Source: Microtetraspora sp. NBRC 16547 (GTDB lineage: Bacteria; Actinomycetota; Actinomycetes; Streptosporangiales; Streptosporangiaceae). From it: 64,000 nucleotides of DNA. A program made the translations under genes and the position numbers. This document shows, piece after piece, positions 56,168 through 64,000 of this stretch. How positions within the stretch are numbered: position 1 is the first letter of the stretch; every line of letters begins with the position of its first letter. Below the pieces are notes generated by a model. That model was given only the letters and a program-made list of their open reading frames with translations. It was not told where the DNA came from and did not search any database. Location of the stretch: assembly GCF_030268965.1 (NCBI RefSeq), contig NZ_BSSE01000016.1, positions 62,001-126,000 on the forward strand. Direction: 5' to 3'.

Positions 56168-56605
56168 GTGGGACGCCACAGGTCTGATCCGATGGGGATC
56201 GCCCGGCTGGTACTCATCGGCCTGGTGGTCCTGCTCGCGCTGGCTGTCGTCGCCGTCGGAGCCAAATCGCTGATGACGGTCCTCGGCTCGGACGACGCCG
56301 GGGCCGCCGTCGCCACGCCCCGCGCATCCGGCGGGGCGTCCTCGTCCGCGAGCACGCGGACGGCGACCGTACAGATCGTGTGCAGCGCCGACCGGTGCCC
56401 GGTGTTCGTCCGCATCCCCGGCGGAGACGTGCTGATGGACCGGGACATGACCCGGGGCGAACAGGCCTCCTATTTCGAACCCGAGCTCGACGTGGTCCTC
56501 GGTGACGCGAGCACGGTCACGGTCCTGGAGAACGGAACCCAGCGTCCCCCGGGTGAGACCGGGGAACGCCAGACGTTCAAGGTGACGAGATCCCCAGATC
56601 GCTGA
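56168..56605 (+). CDS. Small membrane protein with extracytoplasmic domain
   Basis: 145 residues from GTG 56168 (ATG 56192 also open). One N-terminal helix (GIARLVLIGLVVLLALAVVA), a Ser/Ala-rich linker, then a small beta-rich domain with two cysteines (VQIVCSADRCPVFVRIPGGD, PELDVVLGDASTVTVLENG). The CxxxxC pair probably forms a disulfide. I do not recognise a family. The 3' end overlaps pyrE on the other strand by 29 bp. Confidence 0.7.
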   Translation: MGRHRSDPMGIARLVLIGLVVLLALAVVAVGAKSLMTVLGSDDAGAAVATPRASGGASSSASTRTATVQIVCSADRCPVFVRIPGGDVLMDRDMTRGEQASYFEPELDVVLGDASTVTVLENGTQRPPGETGERQTFKVTRSPDR

Positions 56606-57119
56606 GGCCGTAGGCCGAGCGGTACGGCAGGCCGGTGGCGGCCAGGTTCTCGTCGCCACCGCGGTGCACGATCGTCGCGATGCCCACCACCTCGGCGCCG
56701 GCCTCGCGCAGCGCCTCCACGGCGGTCAGCACGGAGCCGCCCGTGGTGGTCGTGTCCTCGACCGCGAGCACGCGGCGTCCCTTCACATCCGGGCCCTCGA
56801 TCCGGCGCTGCAGGCCGTGCGCCTTGCCCGCCTTGCGTACGACGAAGGCGTCCAGCACGCGTCCCCGGGCGGCGGCGGCGTGCAGCATCGCGGTCGCCAC
56901 GGGGTCCGCACCCAGCGTCAGGCCGCCGACCGCGTCATAGCCGAGGTCCTCGGTCAGGTCGAGCATCACTCGCCCCACCAGCGGGGCCGCCACGCCGTCG
57001 AGCGTGATGCGGCGGAGATCGACGTACCAGTCGGCCTCCTTGCCCGAGGAGAGCACGACCCTGCCGTGCACGACCCCCTTCTTCCTGATCTCGTCAAGCA
57101 GCTTCTCGCGGTCGCTCAT
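56577..57119 (-). CDS. pyrE: Orotate phosphoribosyltransferase
   Basis: 180 residues. Type I PRTase that converts orotate and PRPP to OMP. KEADWYVDLRRITLDGVAAP, GYDAVGGLTLGADPVATAML, AFVVRKAGKAHGLQRRIEG (catalytic Lys loop) and the PRPP-binding VLAVEDTTTTGGSVLTAVEA are present. Normal length. Divergent from the sigma-fusion gene at 57239. Confidence 0.96.
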   Translation of the reverse strand: MSDREKLLDEIRKKGVVHGRVVLSSGKEADWYVDLRRITLDGVAAPLVGRVMLDLTEDLGYDAVGGLTLGADPVATAMLHAAAARGRVLDAFVVRKAGKAHGLQRRIEGPDVKGRRVLAVEDTTTTGGSVLTAVEALREAGAEVVGIATIVHRGGDENLAATGLPYRSAYGLSDLGISSP

Positions 57120-57238
57120 GGCGCCCAGCCTACGAGGTCGCGACCACCGCTTCGAAGGTAAGGACCCGTCACCGGTTTAGGCAGCGCACGGTCGGCGGAA
57201 TCATGTGCTGGACGACTCAGCGTAATCGTGAGGTAACA

Positions 57239-60007
57239 ATGAGTGCGGGAATCCGGCAAACCGATGCAGAACTCCTGGACGCGGTGCGGGGCGGCAACGT
57301 GTCGGCCTACGCCGCGCTCTTCGATCGCCACGTGGCCGCGGCCCGCTCCCTGGCCGGCCAGATGGTCGAGGGGGACGTCGAGGGGGACGTCGAGGGGAAC
57401 ACGGAGGCCGAGGAGATCCTCTCCGAGACGTTCGCGGCCGTGCTCAACGTGATCAGGAGCGGCGGCGGCCCGGAATCGGCATTCCGTCTCTACCTCCTGA
57501 CGGCGCTCCGCCGCACGGCCGCGGGCGAGCAGGACGGGGACGAGCTCGGCACGCCCTACGTGGACCCGGCCTACGCCGGGCTGGAGCGCTCGCTGGTCGC
57601 CAGGGCGTACTTCTCGCTTCCGGAGCGGTGGCGGATGGTGCTGTGGCACACCGAAGTGGAGAACTGCGGCGCGGCCGAGATCGGCCCCATGCTCGGCCTC
57701 TCCGTGAAAGGCGTCGCGGCGCTCGCGTACCGGGCCCGCGAGGGGCTGCGCCAGGCGTTCCTGCAGATCCACCTCGACGGCGGGCCGCTTCCCGGCTGCC
57801 GGGCGATGACGGAGAAGATGGCGGCCTACGTTCGGGGCGGCCTCACCCGGCGCGAGACCCGCATGGTGGACGGGCACGTCGCCGACTGCGTCGACTGCCG
57901 GACCGTCTTCCTCGAACTCTCCGACGTCGTCCAGGGACTCCGGGTCGTCGTCGGGCCGCTCATCGCGGGGCCATTTCTCACCGGGTATCTCGCCGCGCTC
58001 CGCGGCGCCGCCGCCACTGGGCGCGGGGGACGGGCCGGCCTCGCTCGCTGGGTACGGCGGGTGCCCCTCGCGTACTGGGCCGTCGCGGGGGGCACGGCCG
58101 CGGCGGCGGCGGGCGGGCTGCTCCTGATCGACGCCATCACCGACGTCGTCACCGGCGGCGGGCATCCGGCCGCACAGGGCGTCCACGACGAGCGGGACGC
58201 GCACGGCGAAAGCGGCACTCGCGACGGTGTGCCAGACGGCGTGCCGGGCGGGCGCGGCGCAACCGGTGGGAACGGCGGTCATGACGGCCGCGCCCGGCCG
58301 CAGCCGGTGCCGTCTCCGCCGCCGATCTCTCCGCGCGTGATCTCCTCGCCGTTGCCCTCCGCGCTCGTGCCGTTCTCGCCCGGCCGGTCGCCGGGGGCGT
58401 CACCGGCGCGTCCTGCGGTGGTTCCGTCCCCTCCCGCCGCGGCGCCCTCGCCCTCGCCTTCACCCTCGCGATCGGCATCGCCTTCACCCTCACGATCGCC
58501 CTCGGGATCACCCTCGCGATCGGCATCGGGATCGGCTTCGCCGGAGCCGTCCGGCGGGACGGGCGACCTCGCGAAGGCGGCCCCGGAGCCGCCCGTCGAG
58601 CAGCCGCTGCTGTCCAGGAAGCCGGCTCAGGCGCCCGTCCCCAGGGTGGCGCGGCTCGCCGCGACCGTCGAGCCGGTCGGCGCGCTCGTGCGGGCCCGCC
58701 GGGGCATCGTCGCCGTACGGCTGCGCAACACAGGGAACGCCGCCTCCCAGGAGGTCGAGGCCGCGGTCGACCTGCCCCGTGGAGTCGTCCCGGCCGCCGC
58801 CGGAGGCAGTAAGGGGCGCGCCGCGGCCTCGGCCGAGACATCGGGCGGCTGGGCGTGCCGCACGAGCGGAAGGGGGGTGCGCTGCGCGCACGGCGCGCTC
58901 GCGGCGGGGGAGGCCACCTCGTTCTTCCTGCCGGTGACCGTGGCCGGGGACGCACCCGAGGATCGGGGCCCGGCGGTGCGGGTGCGGGCGGGCGCGCTGA
59001 AGGTGGCCGCGACCTCGGCCAAGGGGGTGCGCGCGTCCGGCGCCACCGCCCGCTTCGCCATCGACGGGCACGTGACCGGACAGGCTGTGGGGAGCACCCT
59101 GCTGGCCTGCCCGCCGAAGCGATCCACGTGCACGGAGAAGGTCCTGGTGGACCTCGACAAGGACCCTTCGACGCGGAGCTCCAGCTTCGCCCGCCTCGCT
59201 CTGCCCAGCAGCGGCCGGGTTCTCTGGGCCGGGCTCTACTGGTCGGCCGACGCTGAGGGGACCGCTCCTTCCGGGGACATCCGCGTCCGCGCGCCCCGCT
59301 CGCGGCACTACGTGACGGTGCACGCCGCCGAGGTGGCCCGGCGCACCCTTCCCTCGGGGACCGGCTACCTCGCTTTCGCCGACGTGACGCGGCTCGTCCG
59401 CGAGGGCGGGCCGAGCGGCGTGTGGTGGGTCGCGGACGCGTCCATCCGAACCGCTGCCGCAGGTTCCCAGGGCACTCCCGGGACTCCCGGCACCTCCGGA
59501 ACTCTCCCTTCCAAGGGCACGCCCGCCGCGAAGGCCGCGCCCGATTCCAAGGGCACGCCCGCCGCCAAGGCCGCGCCCGATTCCAAGACCGCGCCCGATC
59601 CCAAACGAACGTCCGATCCCAAGGCCGCGCCCGATCCCAAACGAACGTCCGATCCCAAGGCCACTCCACGCGCTTCCGCCGACCCGACGGGAAGCGCCGG
59701 GTCCGCCGGTCGGGCCGGATGGACGCTGGTCGTGGTCGCCTCCGACCCGCGACAGCCGTTCGGGCAGGCGGCGGTGCTGGAGACGGCGTCGCTGCTCCGG
59801 GGCGGGCGGCCGCTGAACGTCACGCTCGGCGGGCTGTCGGCCGGGGGACCGCGGGCACGGCTGGAGGTCCTGACCTGGCCGGGGAAGGCCGGGCCGCGGC
59901 GCGACTCGGTGACGCTGCGTGGCGAGAGCCCGGTGCTCAACATCCTGACCAGGAGGGACGCGTTGCTCTTCGGAATCGCCGCGATCAGCGTTCCGGCCCT
60001 GCCATGA
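57239..60007 (+). CDS. ECF sigma factor fused to zinc-finger anti-sigma, membrane helices and extracellular domain
   Basis: 922 residues; ATG at 57239 after GAGG. In order: sigma region 2 (about 8-92; DAELLDAVRGGNVSAYAALF, TEAEEILSETFAAVLNVI), interrupted by a duplicated VEGD unit; region 4 (about 125-178; LPERWRMVLWHTEVENCGAA, LGLSVKGVAALAYRAREGLR); a zinc-binding anti-sigma-like module with Cys187, His213, Cys217, Cys220 (GHVADCVDC); hydrophobic segments near 236-256 and 278-304; a Ser/Pro-rich linker to about 450; and a large exodomain. The latter has a DUF11-like part (VGALVRARRGIVAVRLRNTG, EVEAAVDLPRGVVPAAAG), a second part with GRVLWAGLYWSADAEG, and a Lys/Pro/Asp repeat insert. One polypeptide thus joins signal sensing, membrane anchoring, inhibition and transcription. 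Proteolytic release would be needed for the sigma part to act; this is inference from ECF biology. Confidence 0.88.
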   Translation: MSAGIRQTDAELLDAVRGGNVSAYAALFDRHVAAARSLAGQMVEGDVEGDVEGNTEAEEILSETFAAVLNVIRSGGGPESAFRLYLLTALRRTAAGEQDGDELGTPYVDPAYAGLERSLVARAYFSLPERWRMVLWHTEVENCGAAEIGPMLGLSVKGVAALAYRAREGLRQAFLQIHLDGGPLPGCRAMTEKMAAYVRGGLTRRETRMVDGHVADCVDCRTVFLELSDVVQGLRVVVGPLIAGPFLTGYLAALRGAAATGRGGRAGLARWVRRVPLAYWAVAGGTAAAAAGGLLLIDAITDVVTGGGHPAAQGVHDERDAHGESGTRDGVPDGVPGGRGATGGNGGHDGRARPQPVPSPPPISPRVISSPLPSALVPFSPGRSPGASPARPAVVPSPPAAAPSPSPSPSRSASPSPSRSPSGSPSRSASGSASPEPSGGTGDLAKAAPEPPVEQPLLSRKPAQAPVPRVARLAATVEPVGALVRARRGIVAVRLRNTGNAASQEVEAAVDLPRGVVPAAAGGSKGRAAASAETSGGWACRTSGRGVRCAHGALAAGEATSFFLPVTVAGDAPEDRGPAVRVRAGALKVAATSAKGVRASGATARFAIDGHVTGQAVGSTLLACPPKRSTCTEKVLVDLDKDPSTRSSSFARLALPSSGRVLWAGLYWSADAEGTAPSGDIRVRAPRSRHYVTVHAAEVARRTLPSGTGYLAFADVTRLVREGGPSGVWWVADASIRTAAAGSQGTPGTPGTSGTLPSKGTPAAKAAPDSKGTPAAKAAPDSKTAPDPKRTSDPKAAPDPKRTSDPKATPRASADPTGSAGSAGRAGWTLVVVASDPRQPFGQAAVLETASLLRGGRPLNVTLGGLSAGGPRARLEVLTWPGKAGPRRDSVTLRGESPVLNILTRRDALLFGIAAISVPALP

Positions 60008-60199
60008 CCCCCGCTTTATGTCGAATTGGGGGGAAGGCAAGACCAGGACAAACTGGTACGGTCTCCGTGAACGCCAAGGCATCGGGGCTGGGGCGCACGA
60101 GATCCCCATCGTGTCGGCGAGGCCTGAATCGTGGCGATTCACCCTCGCTGCTCCACCGGCTTGATTACCCTGAGAGCCACGTAGGAAGGGCGGTGTCGC

Positions 60200-61615
60200 G
60201 TGGATCGCTGCGCGTTGTTCGTTGACGCCGGCTACCTGCTGGCGGACGGCGCGCTGGCCGCGCACGGGACCCACCAGCGAGAGTCCGTCTCCTGGGACTA
60301 CCCCGGGCTCCTCCACATGCTCACCGGCCTCTGCCAGGAGCGCACCGGACTTCCGCTCCTCCGCTGCTACTGGTACGAGGCGACGGTCGAGGGGCGCCGG
60401 ACGACCGAGCATGACGCGCTGGCCGACCTGCCTGGCCTCAAGCTCCGCCTGGCCCGCATCCGCCCCGGTCGTCGTGAGGGCGTGGACGCCCAGGTGCACC
60501 GCGACCTGATGACGCTGGCGCGCAACAACGCGGTCTGCGACGCCGTGGTGCTCAGCGGCGACGAGGACCTCGCCCAGGTCGTCAGTGACGCGCAGGATCT
60601 CGGGATCCGGGTGACCGTCATCCACATCGCCGTCGAGGGCGGCTGGGCGGCCTCCCGCCCGCTGCGCCAGGAGTCCGACGACCTCATCGAGATCGGCGGC
60701 GTCCAGCTCCGGCCGTACACCACCCTGAGCGCGAGCGCCGATGCGGGGCCCGGCCACGCCAACGGGCAGCAGCCCGCCCTGAACGGCCAGCCCCTGCAGA
60801 ACGGCTTCGGGCAGCTCGTCAACGGCACACCCGCCAACGGCGGATCGGGTGGCGGCTCGGGTGGCGGCTCAAACAACGGCGCATTGGGCGGTGGGGCGTT
60901 GGGGGGCGGTCATGCCGCGCCCACCCCCTCTTCCGGCGCTTCGCACGCCGGACCGGCGCAGCCCGCGTACGCGGGTTACTCGCCGGATCCGCAGCCCGCG
61001 CAGCTTCCCGTGCCTGTCCCGACCCCGACTCCGGTGACCGCCGCACCACCCGCGCAGATGCCGATCTCGGCCCAGACGCCCCCGTCCACCCACGGCTCGC
61101 CGTCGGTGGCCCCACCGGCTCAGGTCTCGCCGACCCCGATCTCCTCGCTCGCCCCGGTGTCGCCGCCTCCGCTTCCCGCGCCGATCGCGTCGCCGCCCGC
61201 GCAGGTGTCACCCGCGAGCCCTTCCACGGCGCAGAACCAGCATTCCGGCAGCTCCACGAACTACTTCGCGCCATCGGCGAGCGCGTACCCGTCGCCCGGC
61301 CTGGTGCCGCTGGGGCCGTACACGGGACCGCAGCCCACCCCGCCTCCGTCGCACAGCGCGGGGACCACGACGACCCTCGCGGAGTCGGTGCAGGCGGCGC
61401 ACAAGGAGGGCTTCGACTTCGGTGAGTCCGTCGCCCGGGACGCTCCCGTCCTGTGGCTGGAGGCGGTGCTCGCCCGCAAGCCCCGGATGCCCTCCGACCT
61501 GGAGGCCCGGCTCCTCCAGGGCTCGTCCCTCCCGATCGACTTCCTCCTCCACGAGGAGGTCCGCCAGGCCCTCCGCCGCGGCTTCTGGGATGCCCTGGAG
61601 CGGGCGCGACGCTGA
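60200..61615 (+). CDS. NYN-domain protein with Pro-rich linker and conserved C-terminus
   Basis: 471 residues, GTG at 60200 after GGAAGGG. The N-terminal 170 residues form a PIN-like NYN domain: CALFVDAGYLLADGALAAHG (first Asp), YWYEATVEG, VDAQVHRDLMTLARNNAVCD and VVLSGDEDLAQVVSDAQDLG (acidic pair), which in related proteins binds metal and cleaves RNA. A Pro/Ala/Gly-rich linker (about 175-390) contains GGSGGGS-type repeats. The C-terminal 75 residues (EGFDFGESVARDAPVLWLEA, RKPRMPSDLEARLLQGSSLP) look conserved and helical. Likely an RNA-processing factor. It lies downstream of the sigma-fusion gene after 192 bp without a clear promoter or terminator. Confidence 0.88.
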   Translation: MDRCALFVDAGYLLADGALAAHGTHQRESVSWDYPGLLHMLTGLCQERTGLPLLRCYWYEATVEGRRTTEHDALADLPGLKLRLARIRPGRREGVDAQVHRDLMTLARNNAVCDAVVLSGDEDLAQVVSDAQDLGIRVTVIHIAVEGGWAASRPLRQESDDLIEIGGVQLRPYTTLSASADAGPGHANGQQPALNGQPLQNGFGQLVNGTPANGGSGGGSGGGSNNGALGGGALGGGHAAPTPSSGASHAGPAQPAYAGYSPDPQPAQLPVPVPTPTPVTAAPPAQMPISAQTPPSTHGSPSVAPPAQVSPTPISSLAPVSPPPLPAPIASPPAQVSPASPSTAQNQHSGSSTNYFAPSASAYPSPGLVPLGPYTGPQPTPPPSHSAGTTTTLAESVQAAHKEGFDFGESVARDAPVLWLEAVLARKPRMPSDLEARLLQGSSLPIDFLLHEEVRQALRRGFWDALERARR

Positions 61616-61650: not shown

Positions 61651-62283
61651 CTACGACAGCGCGTCGAAGCCGGCTCTGAGGCGGCCGACACGATCGGCGA
61701 GGTCGGTCATGGGGCCGATGAGGGGGGTTTCGCCGTTCTTTCCGACGAGTTCACGTACCCGGTCCAGCTCGTCCTCGACGGCGCTGAGCCGGCGTGACAG
61801 TTCGGGCAGCACCTCGGCCTGGTCGGCGCCGTTGCCTTCCGGCAGTTCGGAGGTAAGCCGTTCGCGGAGGAGCGCGGCCTGTTCGGCGAGTCGCCGGTTC
61901 ATGTTGTGGAGCTCGACGAAGACGGCCACCTTCGCGCGCAGCACCCAGGGGTCGAAGGGCTTGGTCAGGTAGTCCACCGCTCCGGCGGCGTACCCCCGGA
62001 AGGCGTAGTCGGGGGCGCTGTCAACGACGGTCAGGAAGATGATCGGGATGTTGCGGGTGCGCTCGCGCCGCTTGATGTGGGCGGCGGTCTCGAAGCCATC
62101 CATTCCGGGCATCCGCACGTCGAGGAGGATGAGCGCGAACTCGGTGCCCAGCAGGGCCTTCAGCGCCTCCTCACCTGACCTGGCCCGGACGGGGATCAGG
62201 TCGAGTGAGCTGAGGATCGCCTCCAGGGCGATCAGGTTCTCTTCGCGGTCGTCGACAAGGAGGATCTTGGCGCGGTCCGACAT
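61651..62283 (-). CDS. Response regulator, receiver domain with coiled-coil C-terminus
   Basis: 210 residues. Receiver domain KILLVDDREENLIALEAILS, LILLDVRMPGMDGFETAAHI with Asp55, IIFLTVVDSAPDYAFRGYAA and YLTKPFD with Lys; beyond 120 a long helical coiled coil (FVELHNMNRRLAEQAALLRE, PELSRRLSAVEDELDRVREL) and no DNA-binding domain. It follows the hybrid kinase gene (3-bp gap) on the same strand, so both belong to one phosphorelay. Output is probably by protein contact. Confidence 0.93.
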   Translation of the reverse strand: MSDRAKILLVDDREENLIALEAILSSLDLIPVRARSGEEALKALLGTEFALILLDVRMPGMDGFETAAHIKRRERTRNIPIIFLTVVDSAPDYAFRGYAAGAVDYLTKPFDPWVLRAKVAVFVELHNMNRRLAEQAALLRERLTSELPEGNGADQAEVLPELSRRLSAVEDELDRVRELVGKNGETPLIGPMTDLADRVGRLRAGFDALS

Positions 62284-62286
62284 CGA

Positions 62287-64000
<1,714 letters not shown>

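Follow-up and report, generated by a model that had tools for sequence, protein, structure and literature searches.

The window, a 64,000-nucleotide stretch of Microtetraspora sp. NBRC 16547 (family Streptosporangiaceae), encodes a 922-aa protein in which an extracytoplasmic function (ECF) sigma factor, a zinc anti-sigma (ZAS) domain, a membrane part and a large exodomain are fused. The architecture and conservation of this fusion are well supported. We consider it fairly probable that the protein tethers an ECF sigma factor to the membrane together with a class-I ZAS of its own, crosses the membrane once, displays a DUF3344-like head outside the cell, and is released by proteolysis. The directly established basis for this reading is the domain order and conservation of the fusion, its zinc ligands, the selection acting on it, the kinship of its head, a promoter-like element upstream, and the presence of M50 proteases. 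Coordinates and residue numbers refer to the window and to its 922-aa fusion protein, whose features are as follows.

57239..60007, plus strand: fused sigma/anti-sigma/membrane/exodomain protein, 922 aa (frame, family comparison)
57173..57201, plus strand: promoter-like element CGGTTTAG-N14-GCGGAAT (GGTTTAG-N16-GGAAT), conserved 5' of the sigma gene
57230..57233, plus strand: ribosome-binding site GAGG, 5 bases 5' of the ATG (read from the sequence)
57239..57784, plus strand: ECF sigma domain, regions 2 and 4, residues 1-182 (Pfam, orthologue and profile matches)
57365..57397, plus strand: 12-base tandem repeat in sigma region 2 (alignment, repeat scan)
57788..58006, plus strand: ZAS domain with Cys187, His213, Cys217, and Cys220 (Pfam, ligand pattern, alignment)
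57944..58000, plus strand: hydrophobic segment 1, residues 236-254, motif GPLxxGP...Y (hydropathy, alignment; putative role)
58082..58138, plus strand: hydrophobic segment 2, residues 282-300, likely the sole crossing (predicted from hydropathy and charges)
58151..58624, plus strand: Pro/Ser/Gly-rich stalk, little conserved in sequence
58634..59098, plus strand: exodomain part 1, residues 466-620, unnamed, family-conserved (alignment, family loci)
59099..60004, plus strand: exodomain part 2, residues 621-922, a divergent DUF3344-like head with WAGLYWSAD (profile comparison)
59453..59698, plus strand: Lys/Pro/Asp tandem-repeat insert inside the head, about residues 739-820 (alignment, repeat scan)

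The gene starts with the ATG at 57239 and its stop codon ends at 60007, with all 922 codons open; a GTAATCGTGAGGT-like stretch resembling the GAGG site of the window also lies 5' of many orthologues. An alternative ATG at 57203 would give 934 aa and abuts the 3' end of the promoter-like element. About 450 residues follow the sigma domain, the zinc motif, the two hydrophobic segments, and the Pro/Ser-rich stalk. We compared the stretch upstream of the NYN-domain gene, the downstream neighbor of the fusion, in 144 genomes of the family; left out were the window's own genome, G096 (taken as Microtetraspora glauca), and four more in which NYN was unmatched (G082) or matched weakly (G047, G126, and G137). 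Sigma and exodomain share one frame in 62 loci from 35 genera, which we call full fusions; the ZAS is present in all of them, and the membrane helix was checked in 30 aligned sequences. Two-frame genes were found only in G001 and G021. A frameshift between residues 230 and 450, named by an earlier sequence-only reading as what would overturn its proposal, is thus unlikely, and an assembly artifact was rejected on the same grounds. The continuous frame and the one-protein device described by that reading, which had counted such devices among known groups, are both borne out.

The remaining loci provide a natural dissection of the fusion. The exodomain is cut by a contig end in 6, 11 are headless, 5 carry sigma only, 53 have nothing recognizable, and 5 contigs are too short. 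Headless genes encode sigma and ZAS, in most cases with the helix and mostly with a Pro-rich stalk at the end; one (G020) stops shortly after the ZAS, and its contig begins within the gene. The sigma-only genes, which end a few residues past region 4, come from all five sampled genomes of one genus. In a tree of 81 sigma domains (midpoint-rooted, with a bootstrap not quite settled and some long rows), they form a single clade (100/100) within the full fusions, beside those of genus g28 (97/96), whereas the headless label needs 6 changes, 5 of them forced by well-supported branches. Because of this nested position, the free-sigma clade has probably lost its inhibitor, membrane part, and exodomain. 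Its genes are under purifying selection, with ratios of nonsynonymous to synonymous substitution (dN/dS) of 0.10-0.21 over 10 pairs, which suggests that the sigma factor works by itself and that the rest of the fusion looks like a removable regulator; this clade is our strongest evidence for that division of labor.

Across the family, an exodomain profile matched 77 of 150 genomes and 40 of 68 genera. In 72 of the 77 (the window and G096 counted), the exodomain immediately precedes NYN; the remaining five (G024, G047, G081, G129, and G144) are weak matches, with best E-values of 4.9e-4 to 1.7e-11. In the 62 full loci, the fusion and NYN are separated by no more than 610 bases, apart from one locus with 1,098. 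A scan of named genomes returned two relatives, both Microtetraspora, one of full length and one cut by a contig end, and the orthologue of Nonomuraea gerenzanensis is 45% identical over 69% of the query. Contigs L013, L014, and L015 of a viral collection (IMG/VR) encode fused or shortened sigma-ZAS proteins, two of them in tandem on L013.

Both sigma regions predicted by the sequence-only reading were recovered through relatives, whereas the window protein by itself stays below the Pfam cut-offs. Its region 4 scores 20.9 against a cut-off of 25.7, and region 2 was not detected by Pfam. Region 2 does pass in the close orthologue L001 of M. glauca (31.9 bits, cut-off 24), and when 15 relatives are combined in a profile, solved ECF sigma factors are matched across both regions, best SigL (6dv9, 1.8e-9), followed by sigma E (1or7, 2.4e-9), which we take to be the proteins of Mycobacterium tuberculosis and Escherichia coli, respectively. 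By sequence match, the domain is therefore an ECF sigma factor, and we expect it to direct transcription as one. The weak Pfam score of the window protein goes with the tandem repeat in region 2, which adds 8 residues (47-54) relative to at least 70% of the 30 aligned sequences. Between sigma2 and sigma4 lies a linker of 25 residues in the window; the three rows closest to it in the alignment have the same length, six others have 26, and 13 of the 30 have 37.

The zinc motif was found exactly as claimed. The window protein matches zf-HC2 at 4.8e-7, above the Pfam cut-off, and shows the HxxxCxxC with an upstream Cys/His that defines a class-I ZAS. This ligand pattern occurs in 31 of 32 locus proteins (L021 being the window itself, and L020 and L001 taken as one gene); the exception, L022, is truncated by a contig end.

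The two hydrophobic segments that had been noted both exist, although the first probably does not cross the membrane. Basic loops lie on the cytoplasmic side according to the positive-inside rule. The loop between the segments holds on average 5.8 Lys/Arg and 0.8 Asp/Glu in 30 aligned orthologues, the window included, whereas the 15 residues after segment 2 hold 1.4 and 1.6; in 29 of the 30, the more positive charge is that of the loop. The loop would therefore be cytoplasmic, and segment 2 would cross outward as the likely single membrane crossing. Segment 1 comes after the zinc motif, at the place expected for anti-sigma helix 4; this helix contacts sigma2 in class-I anti-sigma factors, as described in PMC7406223. 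The GPLxxGP...Y motif conserved in segment 1 would suit a specific function, and the segment is probably helix 4 or a helix lying on the membrane surface.

The exodomain had been called not nameable, and for its C-terminal part this no longer holds. A profile of the head aligned with the N-terminal parts of four DUF11-carrying proteins of Thermus and Deinococcus by hhalign with a probability of 100 and an E-value of 5.3e-42 over 287 columns. One of the four, L004, has a PF11824 (DUF3344) match of 3.9e-6 below the cut-off; in the other three, no such match was found at E ≤ 0.01. We scanned 12 head-bearing proteins against this model, whose gathering score is 27.2 bits. Five gave scores below it, namely L004 from Thermus (27.1), L241 (26.1), L250 (24.5), L257 (19.0), and the orthologue L216 (18.0), and no match was listed for the other seven, the remaining three Thermus/Deinococcus proteins included (the window at E ≤ 1, L001, L003, L016, L017, L018, and L091). 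The label DUF3344-like thus rests on homology through relatives and not on the curated threshold. Standard annotation misses the domain because, of 31 family genomes, the DUF3344 model responds in just one, which is not that of the window. A paper on fibrillar adhesins (PMC9210967) contains a single mention of DUF3344.

Part 1 of the exodomain has no Pfam hit in the window protein at E ≤ 1, and the DUF11-like part read there from the sequence was likewise not confirmed by a Pfam match at that level. The Lys/Pro/Asp repeats are present as a variable insert; at least 70% of the 30 aligned sequences have a gap there, and the repeats were rejected as a conserved module. Against solved structures, the exodomain profile gave a best E-value of 0.086 and the single sequence a hit at 0.023, and a scan of viral contigs for the exodomain returned 0 of 57 candidates.

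With the head profile, 15 of 396 genomes of the phylum matched at 1e-8, the window's own included, and 19 of the 21 other loci returned were examined. At 18 of these 19, there is no sigma match at the head, which lies mainly in large open frames, the longest of 5,239 aa, or in frames of 393-424 aa. DUF11 was confirmed in L241 among the phylum frames scanned, and the head otherwise appears to occur at the start of large DUF11 proteins, presumably located at the surface. The DUF3344/DUF11 proteins of Thermus, Deinococcus, and Actinomycetota thus share the head with the fusion and differ from it in the sigma domain, absent at those 18 loci. The exception is L257 (L262; G262, of another class), which has sigma, a ZAS-like region without the final Cys pair, a stalk, and a DUF3344-like head in the same order. 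The frames of 393-424 aa (L248-L252) come from five genomes of one genus in the window's class and begin with a hydrophobic stretch that by eye resembles a secretion signal.

The general design of the fusion is published. ECF48, ECF52, and ECF53 are described as fused sigma/anti-sigma proteins, and for SCO4117 (ECF52) of Streptomyces coelicolor, whose exodomain is a carbohydrate-binding module, a model of proteolytic release has been put forward; its expression was activated in a strain with a truncated protein, suggesting autoregulation (PMC5826349 and PMC8999054, in the parts available). The window protein resembles these groups in having sigma, zinc finger, one or two helices, a Pro-rich stalk, and a long C-terminal exodomain in one actinobacterial protein, a likeness of architecture. 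In contrast to SCO4117, its exodomain is DUF3344-like, with no Pfam hit to a carbohydrate-binding module at E ≤ 1, and its locus is pyrE-sigma-NYN, whereas SCO4117 adjoins atrA. IutY of Pseudomonas putida (ECF243) similarly joins sigma to a membrane anti-sigma, is freed by Prc and RseP, and is given as the sole fusion with experimentally characterized proteolytic activation; it differs in serving Gram-negative iron-starvation cell-surface signaling, and the available part of that source (PMC8999054) makes no mention of a DUF3344-like head.

A further set of relatives lies on plasmids of Streptomyces and Arthrobacter (L005-L007 and L009-L012). They share the sigma-ZAS-membrane chassis, with 27-38% identity to the window in that part, and differ in their exodomains, which are ricin-type lectin, LamG, Ig-like, or unnamed; L007 has no Pfam sigma or zinc-finger match at E ≤ 0.1. 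Some adjoin genes for surface proteins, with an LAETG sortase-dependent protein downstream of L006 and SpaA pilin-related proteins upstream of L011 and L012, and the plasmid fusions may regulate such neighbors.

Purifying selection acts on every domain that we compared with M. glauca. The dN/dS was 0.17 for sigma, 0.10 for the ZAS, 0.16 for exodomain part 1, and 0.22 and 0.31 for the head, the stalk being excluded as not alignable; the neighboring genes gave 0.12 (pyrE), 0.10 (response regulator), and 0.29 (NYN). Comparison with G038 and G118 gave 0.21 for sigma, 0.13-0.14 for the ZAS, and 0.25 for part 1; the head had values of 0.42-0.47 and the stalk of 0.44-0.47.

The promoter-like element is tied to the fusion gene. 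Of 80 upstream regions, 42 contain a looser pattern, and in 39 of these the spacing is exactly that of the window. The strict pattern, GGTTTAG-N12-18-GGAAT, was searched on both strands in the 785,426 bases of the 144 loci and gave 38 matches, every one at a gene-bearing locus. All are on the sense strand, at 36 of the 62 full, 1 of the 11 headless, and 1 of the 2 split genes; none occurs in the 53 loci without the gene, the 5 sigma-only loci, the 6 cut by a contig end, or the 5 short ones. Four congeneric genomes carry one copy each at the window spacing. In G000, this copy accompanies the sigma gene, and its position implies the same for G096 and G118; in G061, where the sigma gene is cut by a contig end, it is on another contig. 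One further match at another spacing was seen in each of G000 and G118. Autoregulation would be the simplest reading of the element; another regulator could bind there instead. We rejected GGAAT as a −35 of the GGAAC type found for ECF factors, as the geometry leaves no space for a ribosome-binding site. Of the SCO4117 motif CSGYN-17-SRHA, CGGTT agrees with the first half, but the second would require a spacing of 19; we do not claim it. The sigma-only clade has GCGGAAT and lacks GGTTTAG. Upstream of its free-sigma genes, all five genomes (L109, L114, L116, L142, and L232) carry a palindrome, AGTCAG-N5-CTGACT, that is absent from the rest of the 144 loci and is possibly a new operator or a hairpin.

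For topology, inhibition, release, autoregulation, and signal, we infer the following course. Sigma and ZAS would lie in the cytoplasm, with segment 2 crossing the membrane once and the Pro/Ser stalk displaying the DUF3344-like head outside. At rest, the ZAS would grip sigma2 and sigma4. Binding of a ligand or surface, tension, wall damage, shedding, or a similar event affecting the head or stalk would expose a cut site near the membrane, and a general M50 intramembrane protease encoded elsewhere would free the cytoplasmic part. Further proteolysis of the ZAS would then yield active sigma, which would turn on its own promoter and other genes. By analogy with the studied fusions, release by proteolysis is likely. 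The sequence-only reading had remarked that no protease gene is nearby, and the 12 neighboring frames scanned indeed contain no match to protease families. This is no obstacle, as M50 (site-2) proteases are encoded elsewhere in the genome, with four match rows in three open frames, all above the cut-off (best 4.1e-45). M50 matches were also obtained in 14 of 14 control genomes, so their presence is weakly informative and merely removes an objection to release.

Several observations weigh against this proposal. No cleavage site was identified in the fusion. The sigma2-sigma4 linker is short, and in the window acidic, which could weaken sigma activity, and one close pair (L091/L092) gave a dN/dS of 0.81-0.91 for sigma and 1.15 for the ZAS, from few changes. 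Segment 1 has a mean Kyte-Doolittle value of 1.56 (0.85 to 2.04 over 30 sequences), so that a second crossing may occur in some orthologues. The headless versions (11 of 144, with at least five label changes) mean that the head is not indispensable. Finally, a single genomic copy of the element at its spacing is odd for a sigma factor with a regulon, and the looser pattern is absent from 23 of the 62 full fusions, many of which have a different upstream region.

The lack of a recognizable cut site also suits a tethered switch without proteolysis, in which the membrane-held sigma factor would be activated by a conformational change of the ZAS or segment 1 transmitted through the helix. Conservation of GPLxxGP...Y beyond mere hydrophobicity would fit such a switch, as would the amphipathic helices of RsiV, which act as a switch, there controlling cleavage (PMC6066255, in the part available). 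However, the nearest studied fusions are activated by proteolysis, as is thought for SCO4117 and shown for IutY in the sources cited above, M50 proteases are present in the genome, and the free-sigma homologues indicate that the membrane is not needed. We regard this switch as unlikely, if worth keeping in mind.

It is improbable that the protein is mainly a surface protein whose sigma domain has become vestigial in the lineage of the window, with the exodomain as the selected function. The sub-cut-off Pfam scores, the repeat insert in region 2, the short acidic linker, and the L091/L092 sigma values would agree with decay, but the sigma dN/dS between the window and M. glauca is similar to or below that of the exodomain parts. 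Furthermore, the exodomain has been lost and sigma kept in 16 of 144 loci, the headless and sigma-only ones, whereas an exodomain without sigma was seen solely in the six loci cut by a contig end. Very improbable is a crossing by both segments, which would put the exodomain back in the cytoplasm and leave no surface sensor: the hydrophobicity of segment 1 in many orthologues favors it, but the strongly basic loop, the Pro/Ser stalk after segment 2, the occurrence of the head otherwise in DUF11 proteins, and the lectin-type exodomains (ricin, LamG) at the same position in the plasmid relatives speak against it.

New here are the DUF3344-like exodomain on a sigma factor, for which the open-access literature searched held no report (which is no proof of absence), and the graded dissection at one locus into full, headless, free-sigma, and absent forms. 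The locus bears on the broader question of how fused sigma/anti-sigma proteins sense and are released. As orthologues with and without the head, without the inhibitor, and without the gene occupy one place, and a candidate promoter is conserved, the roles of the modules can be compared, and a domain listed by Pfam as of unknown function is tied to signaling. Building on the tethered and released sigma factor, we speculate, with considerable doubt, that a head of the surface-protein type was recruited as the input of a sigma factor, so that the state of the surface (attachment, tension, or shedding) would be passed to transcription, and that lineages without head or inhibitor use another input. 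The switch could sustain itself, because the single genomic copy of the element at the exact spacing fronts its own gene.

The neighborhood of the fusion adds the following features.

56577..57119, minus strand: pyrE-like gene (orotate phosphoribosyltransferase), divergent conserved neighbor (Pfam, relatives' loci)
60047..60062, plus strand: GACAAACTGGTACGGT element, extended −10-like, 5' of NYN (conserved)
60200..61615, plus strand: NYN-domain protein, conserved downstream neighbor (near-universal in the family)

The NYN gene had been suggested as a co-regulated RNA effector, and its adjacency to the exodomain is indeed conserved. NYN, however, matched in 149 of the 150 family genomes at 1e-20, three of them weakly. 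Its upstream element, ACAAACTGGTACGGT, is extended −10-like by our own reading, and the window carries a match, defined as at least 12 of 15 positions (shuffled sequences reached 12 in 2 of 720 cases). All 5 sigma-only loci have the element, as do 39 of 62 full loci, 3 of 6 cut by a contig end, 1 of 4 short ones, and 1 of 11 headless ones; neither of the 2 split loci does, and the element is restricted to part of the family. It persists in 8 of the 53 loci without a sigma gene and is complete in G101 and G122, which have none while their congeners have the fusion. Because NYN is near-universal and its element survives in sigma-less loci, co-regulation is unsupported; we rejected the idea that this sigma factor is likely to target NYN, whose expression is probably independent of it. 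The NYN gene has a tandem repeat at 60839-60870, and its frame length varies among orthologues. Beyond it, on the minus strand (61651-63999), lie genes for a response regulator and a hybrid histidine kinase, with counterparts in all three relatives compared (L001-L003).

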